From contig CAMDNJ010000003.1 in the NCBI GenBank assembly GCA_945902915.1, positions 1 through 53,470 on the forward strand: a DNA stretch of 53,470 nucleotides, given 5' to 3'. Numbering within the stretch: position 1 is the first letter of the stretch; each line of letters begins with the position of its first letter. The position numbers were made by a program, and so were the translations under genes. The notes beneath the pieces are model-generated. The model ran no database searches. It saw only the letters and a list, made by a program, of their open reading frames with translations, and had not been told where the DNA came from. Source of the DNA: Crenothrix polyspora (GTDB lineage Bacteria > Pseudomonadota > Gammaproteobacteria > Methylococcales > Methylomonadaceae). Positions 1 to 8,496 of this stretch are shown here, in pieces.

Positions 1-1309
<1,309 letters not shown>

Positions 1310-1313
<4 letters not shown>

Positions 1314-1921
1314 AGTGATTTATGTGTGCTGGGGAGTGTATTCAATGCCTGGTTAAAACAGGCAAAGCTTAGGCAGGCGGTATCTATAGCTATTGCTGCT
1401 AAGTCTGGCTGGTCTGAAAACGAGTTGAGATAGCTGATAAAGCTTTGCCAGTGAGTCGTGGTTTGTTCACCATAAGCGCTAAAAAAATCACTGCCAGTAC
1501 TGCGGGTATAGCCATAGGTGAGCTGTAAATGCTGCGCTATGAAATTTGCACCTAAGCTTGAGCCTTCTAAAACGTAGAGTAAGCCCAACAATGCGCCTAA
1601 GCTGTTTAGCTCAGGCAGCACGAGCTGACAACGTAAGGGCTCAGGTGTGATGTGCCAATATTTTAGGTCATTAAGCAACAGCGGGGTTTTGTAACGTGGC
1701 TGATAATCAAAGGCTATGGGCTGCAAGCTTAGGTAGGCTTTAATCGCCGCTTCTAACTGATGATACAAGGAGTAATAAATGCCTAATAGCTGTTGGTAAT
1801 CGGCTAAGGGCAGCTCTTTGCCTAATAAAGCCACCAATAAGGGCTGTTGATCAAGTTGCTTATGCAAAGGCGCTGTAGCCTCGCGTAAACGGTCGCGTAA
1901 TTCAATGCTTGGTGTGTTCAT
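1310..1921 (-). CDS. Biliverdin-producing heme oxygenase (BphO-like)
   Basis: LREATAPLHKQLD N-terminus, LLYVLEGSSLGA motif; stop codon overlaps the phytochrome ATG (ATGA). Confidence 0.88.
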
Positions 1922-2156: not shown

Positions 2157-2373
2157 AGGTATTGGCAGTGATAATACCTTAGTGACCTTATGGCTTGCAG
2201 GTATTGCGTATGCTAGTAAAGGTATTGGCACTGCTAGGCGAGGTTTTAGCTTATGGCCTAGAGGTATTGGCTTATACCTTGAAGGTATTTCATTACGGTC
2301 CGTAGGTATTATGTTAGCTAAGAAAGGTATTACAACGCCCAGTAGCGCTTATGGCACTGTCAAGCGAGGTATT
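2157..2373 (+). repeat. Phased heptamer array: AGGTATT on a 21-bp register (2157, 2199, 2220, 2241 [AGGTTTT], 2262, 2283, 2304, 2325, 2367), with inverted copies AATACCT at 2173 and 2404
   Basis: Direct coordinate counting; register positions 2178 and 2346 lack the motif. Confidence 0.93.
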
Positions 2374-2433
2374 GGCTATGCCAAGAGAGCTGCTGCGTTA
2401 GCCAATACCTCCAAACTGTCTGGGTTTTTGTAA
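2182..2433 (+). CDS. Possible small heptapeptide-repeat protein (consensus GIGLAKR); uncertain whether translated
   Basis: Track ORF with GTG start; 7-aa periodicity; no clear Shine-Dalgarno before GTG; in-frame TGA at 2152 limits upstream extension. Confidence 0.35.
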   Translation: MTLWLAGIAYASKGIGTARRGFSLWPRGIGLYLEGISLRSVGIMLAKKGITTPSSAYGTVKRGIGYAKRAAALANTSKLSGFL

Positions 2434-2522
2434 GTAGCAATCTGTATGTATTGCCATAGAGTTTCATTATTTGCACCTGAGTTTTTCTGATTTTAATTTT
2501 CTGTCTGTAGGAGTGTGTTTTT

Positions 2523-3218: not shown

Positions 3219-3228
3219 GCTATTGATT

Positions 3229-3283
3229 GGAGTGCAATAGCTTTAGCTATTGCATTTTAAAACAGCTAAAGCAGTTTTACTCC
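3229..3283. repeat. Dispersed double-hairpin repeat, B-type (GGAGTGCAA...TTTTACTCC)
   Basis: ggagtgcaatagctttagctattgcattttaaaacagctaaagcagttttactcc; matches the copies at 7942, 8108, 8275 and 8427. Confidence 0.9.
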
Positions 3284-3358
3284 AAGCTACGGCAGCCAAC
3301 ATTACCAAGGCACAGTGTTGGCTTAACGATAAAGCTGTTAGCCCAAGCTACGGCACTT

Positions 3359-3390
3359 GGAGTGCAATAGCTTTAGCTATTGCATTTTAA
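3359..3390. repeat. Half copy of the B-type repeat, identical to 3229-3260
   Basis: ggagtgcaatagctttagctattgcattttaa, abutting the DUF1244 stop codon. Confidence 0.9.
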
Positions 3391-7827: not shown

Positions 7828-7856
7828 GGTTTGTTCCGACGTGATAATCGATAGGG

Positions 7857-8481
7857 TATAGGATGTGCCGACGCTAGGAGGCGCATCATGGTATAACCGA
7901 TGCGCTTCACGTTGTTCAGCACATCCTATGTTACGGATACTGGAGTGCAACTGCTTTAGCTGTTGCACTATAAAACAGCTAAAGCTGTTTTACTCCTGCT
8001 GAACTGCTAAGACCCTAAAGTGTATAGGATGTGCCGACGCTAGGAGGCGCATCATGGTATAACCGATGCGCTTCACGTTGTTTAGCACATCCTATGTTAC
8101 GGATACTGGAGTGCAACAGTTTCAGCTGTTGCTATTAAAACAGCTAAAGCTGTTTTACTCCTGCTGAATTGTTAATACTCTAAAGTATATAGGATGTGCC
8201 GACGCTAGGAGGCGCATCATGGTATAAACGATGCGCTTCACGTTGTTCAGCACATCCTATAACTTCCGGATTCTGGAGTGCAACTGCTTTAGCTGTTGCA
8301 CTATAAAACAGCTGAAGCTGTTTTACTCCTGCTGAACTGCTAAGACCCTAAAGCGTATAGGATGTGCCGACGTTAGGAGGCGCATCATGGTATAAACGAT
8401 GCGCTACACGTTGTTTAGTACATCCTGGAGTGCAACTGCTTTAGCTGTTGCACTATAAAACAGCTAAAGCTGTTTTACTCC
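7857..8481. repeat. Four-copy tandem array of a composite A-B palindromic unit
   Basis: A units (ATAGGATGTGC...GCACATCCTAT) at about 7857-7929, 8023-8095, 8187-8260, 8356-8426; B units at 7942-7996, 8108-8161, 8275-8329, 8427-8481. Confidence 0.92.
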
Positions 8482-8496
8482 TATAGAGTTGGGAAT

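Follow-up and report, generated by a model that had tools for sequence, protein, structure and literature searches.

The 21-bp phased tandem array near the left end of the 53,470-nucleotide stretch of Crenothrix polyspora DNA analyzed here (the window, contig 3 of G000, a 209-contig draft genome of 2.7 Mb) belongs with the multi-copy gene family whose member lies downstream of it, a link that a preliminary description of the sequence missed. Arrays of this kind are non-coding, linked to gene families, constrained in their period, variable in copy number by whole units, and enriched in dyad symmetry.

The array and its neighborhood

The features of the locus are collected in Table 1. The heptamer positions and the 21-bp register given in the preliminary description were all correct, with AGGTATT starting at 2157, 2199, 2220, 2262, 2283, 2304, 2325 and 2367, AGGTTTT at 2241, and inverted AATACCT copies at 2173 and 2404. 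The phasing exceeds chance, since 4 phased AGGTATT pairs were observed against 0 expected and none of 100 dinucleotide shuffles gave any phased pair. The array holds 10 of the 22 AGGTATT copies in the window when both strands are counted, and 9.1 +/- 3.0 copies would be expected in the window as a whole. Over the 800 bp upstream of the 2523-3218 gene, the best of 67 compared lags was 21 (match 0.56). The divergence among the units is too great for TRF, which did not detect the array. Within the genome, phased AGGTATT pairs are confined to this one place, an Rfam search matched no model up to E = 1, and no terminator was found between array and gene in the window. Array borders, here and below, are approximate.

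Table 1. Features of the array locus, in window coordinates
Feature	Position	Strand	Remarks
Phytochrome-like ORF	3-1313	-	
Heme oxygenase	1310-1921	-	
21-bp phased tandem array	2157-2410	+	12 units, core AGGTATT in 9 (one of them AGGTTTT); loose consensus AGGTATTGGCTTATGCCAAGNG; non-coding
First unit as inverted pair AGGTATT...AATACCT	2157-2179	+	Perfect hairpin in the orthologue of G041 (AGGTATTGGCAGTGCCAATACCT)
Open frame, 83 aa	2182-2433	+	Gene status unsupported: stops in orthologues, 3 synonymous versus 16 replacement changes, no Pfam match
Terminal hairpin or dyad, last unit	2366-2411	+	Perfect 13-bp inverted repeat, arms 2366-2378 and 2399-2411
AGGAG, likely ribosome-binding site of the 2523-3218 gene	2509-2513	+	From sequence; kept in G041 and in one G046 copy
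Multi-copy-family gene, 231 aa	2523-3218	+	N-terminal helices and C-terminal fibronectin-III-like sandwich

An orthologous array stands in the same place, beside a heme oxygenase, in genome G041, and two further copies were found in G046. Comparison of G000 with G041 bears on the spacers, which had been said to vary strongly: they are more variable than the motif, with changes in 12 of 126 spacer columns and 0 of 63 motif columns (p = 0.009), but they are not random, and the 14-bp spacers share the loose consensus GGCTTATGCCAAGNG. One of the two G046 copies has exactly one 21-bp unit more than the other, and in G046 the terminal dyad is altered on both sides (AGGTATGGGC/GCCCATACCT).

The codon pattern reported for the 2182-2433 frame, with its third-base A and its GGT and ATT codons, holds as described, and the view that selection acts on nucleotides and not on a peptide is supported by the stops in orthologues, the contrast between motif and spacers, the lack of codon periodicity, and periods that are not multiples of three. 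The other reading offered at the time, that the array codes for a GIGLAKR heptapeptide-repeat protein, has in its favor one frame open over 83 codons in its own genome, and we give it almost no credence: that frame, neither conserved nor under purifying selection, contains two in-frame TAG codons in G041 and stops in both G046 copies, and shows 3 synonymous against 16 replacement codon changes between G000 and G041 (11, 7 and 5 changes at codon positions 1, 2 and 3); between-unit variation has no codon periodicity across 41 arrays (Fisher p = 0.96), and a peptide would not suit the 40-, 41-, 22- and 44-bp periods of other arrays.

The downstream gene, in contrast to this frame, carries 54 of its 80 differences between G000 and G041 at third codon positions (13/13/54), indicating purifying selection. 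The AlphaFold model of its 231-aa product, with the helices and the fibronectin-III-like (FN3-like) sandwich, has a pLDDT of 84, and its Foldseek matches are mostly FN3 domains. Searches of Pfam, NCBIfam, PHROG and PADLOC matched no family, and the family was absent from the phage, plasmid and viral records searched for the proteins. Heme oxygenase was rejected as the partner of the array: its synteny is kept in G041 only, and where it is absent the array still adjoins the 231-aa gene. The heme oxygenase and phytochrome-like ORFs had been called a divergent pair, which is inexact, as both lie on the minus strand.

Several other repeats and motifs were observed around the locus. Between heme oxygenase and array, at about 2045-2070, AAATGATAATGATTGTAAG resembles a Fur box and is likely heme oxygenase's own. 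In G041, several copies of one REP-like palindromic element (GTCATACCGGCCGGGAAGCCGGTATCCAGTGCC), absent from the window, occupy the same interval (L008, ~880-1310). At the contig end, window positions 1-121 contain twenty copies of TCAGGC, which read as (Glu-Pro)n at the C terminus of the phytochrome-like ORF; the break in the contig falls within these copies. At 7856-8482 a 165-bp intergenic unit with hairpins (GGAGTGCAACTGCTTTAGCTGTTGCACT) is repeated four times in tandem, and related palindromes also occur at ~3227-3260 and 3357-3390. In the second array and gene copy of G046 (C104; L010, 1440-2370), the gene is shortened to 181 aa and the array persists.

Arrays upstream of helical-FN3 genes

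The 231-aa family has 11 matches in the genome of the window, up to 18 in other members of the genus, and few outside it. A second family, of 204 aa, reaches 25 copies per genome, and its AlphaFold model (pLDDT 88) also has the layout of helices plus FN3; we refer to members of both as helical-FN3 genes. The best upstream period was exactly 21, 42 or 63 in 33 of 45 genes of the 231-aa family within the genus (p = 1e-35) and in 17 of 24 genes of the 204-aa family (p = 6e-21), compared with 8 of 515 other genes. These counts require a match of at least 0.46 and exclude loci that were ascertained through their arrays, and the control genes are ORFs of at least 150 codons from the same genomes. 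Of 49 non-redundant upstream regions of the 231-aa family, 40 had 21, 42 or 63 as the highest-scoring of 67 lags. Most arrays of the 204-aa family have a 42-bp superperiod made of two unit types, with two members at 40 bp and two at 41 bp. Downstream of the genes of both families, no comparable arrays were found.

An unbiased 450-kb sample of the genome of the window placed 2 of 2 21-bp arrays and 2 of 4 42-bp arrays upstream of family genes. Repeats of other lengths are frequent in other parts of these Crenothrix genomes. Assembly error is an unlikely source of the arrays, since they are also present in G018, which is a single contig; the remaining genomes are drafts or MAGs. According to the preliminary description, its reading depended on further phased arrays in this genome or its relatives; these exist. 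A role of AGGTATT as a general recognition motif is not supported, the heptamer being specific to the locus described here and to close homologues of it.

Crenothrix arrays without a helical-FN3 gene also occur. AGGTATT arrays lie 3' of an apparent purM without such a gene in L158 (7200-7581, G015) and L159 (10509-10847, G023), and G041 has an array related to these on contig C337. Two 21-bp arrays of G050 (L011, 1172-1751; L031, 1250-1775) flip orientation midway, from AATACCTTT... to AAAGGTATT..., and no helical-FN3 gene was found in their fetched flanks. A search for the phased heptamer across species gave 118 matches, mostly plain (AGGTATT)n or near-perfect 21-bp minisatellites unrelated to the present arrays; the two-unit pattern matches in G020, G002 and G016 resemble ordinary coding genes, and a match on contig C103 of G042 is a coding repeat.

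Outside the genus, a Nitrosomonadales MAG carries a 231-type gene with a 42/21-bp array (L154), possibly through a binning error. A search with profile A4 recovered relatives in Bacteroidota MAG G457 (Umea1_bin-1585) and Verrucomicrobiaceae MAG G458; the Bacteroidota and Verrucomicrobiota MAGs had been reached via an AGGTATT array and are hence a non-random choice, and the gene loci were found by protein. Seven of the fetched Bacteroidota loci, two of them found via protein P0003, have upstream 21/42-bp arrays (match 0.81-0.98), both G458 genes have 22/44-bp arrays, and upstream of a relative in another family of the same order there is a 22-bp array that is weak. Comparing profiles of the 204-aa and Bacteroidota proteins with the small alignment A2 gave no match. 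The subfamilies are alike in predicted architecture, with homology between them unproven.

In G457 the arrays extend well past these genes. Among 78 repeats in 316 kb, 71 have lags of 20-22 or multiples, and locus-specific 21/42-bp arrays occupy many intergenic regions (L346-L365), or about 5% of the sampled sequence, so a helical-FN3 gene is not needed everywhere. In G458, 285 kb yielded only four such arrays, of which one adjoins a helical-FN3 gene. The Phycisphaeraceae MAG G459 (66% GC) has thirteen repeats in 397 kb whose lags are 20-22 bp or multiples of these (L386-L405).

What the arrays keep and how they may act

The unit sequences of paralogue arrays are unrelated to one another, as in GCAAGCTTACCCACTGTTTTG, GAGTGTTCATCAGTCATTGCC and ATCGTAGACCTATGAATTTTA. 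What stays constant is the unit length, 20-22 bp with 21 the commonest value, and two units are often joined into a period of 40-44 bp. Dyad symmetry is enriched as well, with a mean z of 2.2 over 64 arrays and z > 2 in 48% of them; about half of the arrays have no strong dyad. Over the same 64 arrays, dyad pairing climbs at distances of at least 5, leaving an unpaired center of about 4-5 bases. Mismatches at paired positions were G:T in 366 cases and A:C in 317 (408 and 380 expected) without strand bias, and neither strand folds better overall as RNA. The dyads may represent either pairs of half-sites in DNA or short hairpins, and we favor DNA over one transcribed RNA strand because G:T and A:C mismatches are about equal and no strand folds better.

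The explanation we prefer, at a likelihood a little short of even, is that the arrays are a class of protein-binding DNA in which unit length is kept and sequence is locus-specific. In Crenothrix they precede helical-FN3 genes by a few hundred base pairs, and they would act as DNA. One protein dimer would cover each unit of 20-22 bp, or about two turns of the helix, and dimers on successive units would assemble along the array and control or mark the neighboring gene. As a guess, each array could be bound by the protein of its own paralogue, in which case the locus-specific sequences would be accounted for. The cooperative protein-binding array proposed earlier thus survives as the best guess, stripped of AGGTATT as its general motif. 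Several observations weigh against protein binding: a fold search with the 231-aa protein returned FN3 domains only and no DNA-binding fold, no common binder is evident because units are unrelated between paralogues, a 22-bp unit drifts relative to 10.5 bp per turn, about half of the arrays lack a strong dyad, and arrays without a helical-FN3 gene occur in Crenothrix and across G457. A broader version, which we regard as possible but somewhat doubtful, would make the arrays one kind of DNA element shared across phyla and recognizable by its unit length and not its sequence. A dedicated machinery would produce and maintain it, and in Crenothrix, Bacteroidota and Verrucomicrobiota each array would have a helical-FN3 protein as its cognate partner.

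The arrays could instead have no function of their own and record a local process that duplicates resident intergenic DNA about 21 bp at a time, for instance slippage, or the action of a nuclease or polymerase with a ruler of two helical turns. They would then arise where selection is weak, and their enrichment at helical-FN3 genes would reflect shared history only. We judge this unlikely and still a serious rival because of G457, where repeats reach about 22 per 100 kb without orientation bias (3.3 per 100 kb in the Phycisphaeraceae MAG). Units that are locus-specific and not copies of one dispersed element, and the gain or loss of whole units, also fit a mutational origin. It accounts poorly, however, for the extreme enrichment upstream of two Crenothrix families and its absence downstream, for a motif more conserved than its spacers, and for the other repeat lengths that abound elsewhere in the same Crenothrix genomes.

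Weaker than a mutational origin, and in our view improbable, is an RNA resembling a type III antitoxin, in which transcribed 21- or 42-nt repeats restrain the downstream protein in a pair-specific way. The order of parts is the same, tandem non-coding repeats followed by a gene of ~200-230 aa, and repeats also differ in sequence between loci in ToxIN, CptIN and TenpIN (PMC4627078). Single arrays fold strongly (L162, z = -6.9; L233, z = -6.7), and one orthologue group (L288, L289, L315) favors G:T pairs, so that the structured leader suggested earlier is possible for some arrays. Against an RNA of this kind, there is no strand asymmetry overall, terminators between array and gene (10 of 60) occur at the rate of genomic tiles and the reverse strand, no known toxin family was matched in Pfam, NCBIfam or PADLOC and no relation to ToxN, CptN or TenpN was found, Rfam gave no match, and gene-less arrays are common in G457. 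Intrinsically curved DNA, in which repeats in helical phase bend and the bend acts on a promoter, would suit a 21-bp period of two turns with free sequence, and is very unlikely given that predicted curvature (a wedge model with assumed parameters) is 0.862 in arrays versus 0.882 in genomic tiles (p = 0.38) and does not depart from column-permuted arrays (z = -0.03).

Comparison with known repeat systems

Regulatory and mobile repeats are normally recognized by sequence, whereas here sequence is free and spacing alone is kept, in arrays that in more than one phylum accompany two large protein families without a name. No array class defined solely by its unit length was found in the open-access literature searched, which suggests that this one has not been described before. 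If the arrays bind protein, they would constitute a DNA-marking or regulatory system invisible to sequence-similarity searches; if they arise by mutation, they would reveal a tandem-duplication process with a two-turn ruler.

Type III toxin-antitoxin loci are similar in having non-coding tandem repeats, different at each locus, directly upstream of a gene of ~200 aa. They differ from the present arrays, which show no terminator enrichment, no toxin homology, a protein predicted as helices plus an FN3 sandwich, a unit length fixed at 20-22 or 40-44, and copies without a gene. Iterons and operator arrays consist of direct repeats, ~17-22 bp long, to which Rep or partition proteins bind, and are matched here by in-phase direct repeats near two helical turns, a short conserved core at the locus in the window, and dyad symmetry in many arrays. 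The present arrays, however, are chromosomal, number dozens per genome, have units specific to each locus, and lie near no replication gene, and plasmid and phage collections gave no match to their protein family; with neither replicon nor shared motif, the earlier suggestion of a simple iteron site is not supported.

REP and BIME elements are likewise intergenic, in short arrays with sometimes two alternating unit types; their units are partly palindromic, which may hold for some of the present arrays (dyad z > 2 in 48% of 64). REPs have one genome-wide sequence, whereas every locus here has its own, and REP/BIME dispersal was rejected on the locus-specific units and on the single place at which phased AGGTATT pairs occur in the genome. 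Heptanucleotide repeats (AGGTATT)n share the heptamer and dominate a genus-blind pattern search; their period is 7, whereas the present array has a best lag of 21 and spacers that differ.

In Mycoplasma, GAA repeats upstream of the members of the vlhA multigene family control phase variation. The present arrays are comparable in that they precede most members of a large paralogous family and vary in copy number, but their unit is 21 bp long and differs from one member to the next.
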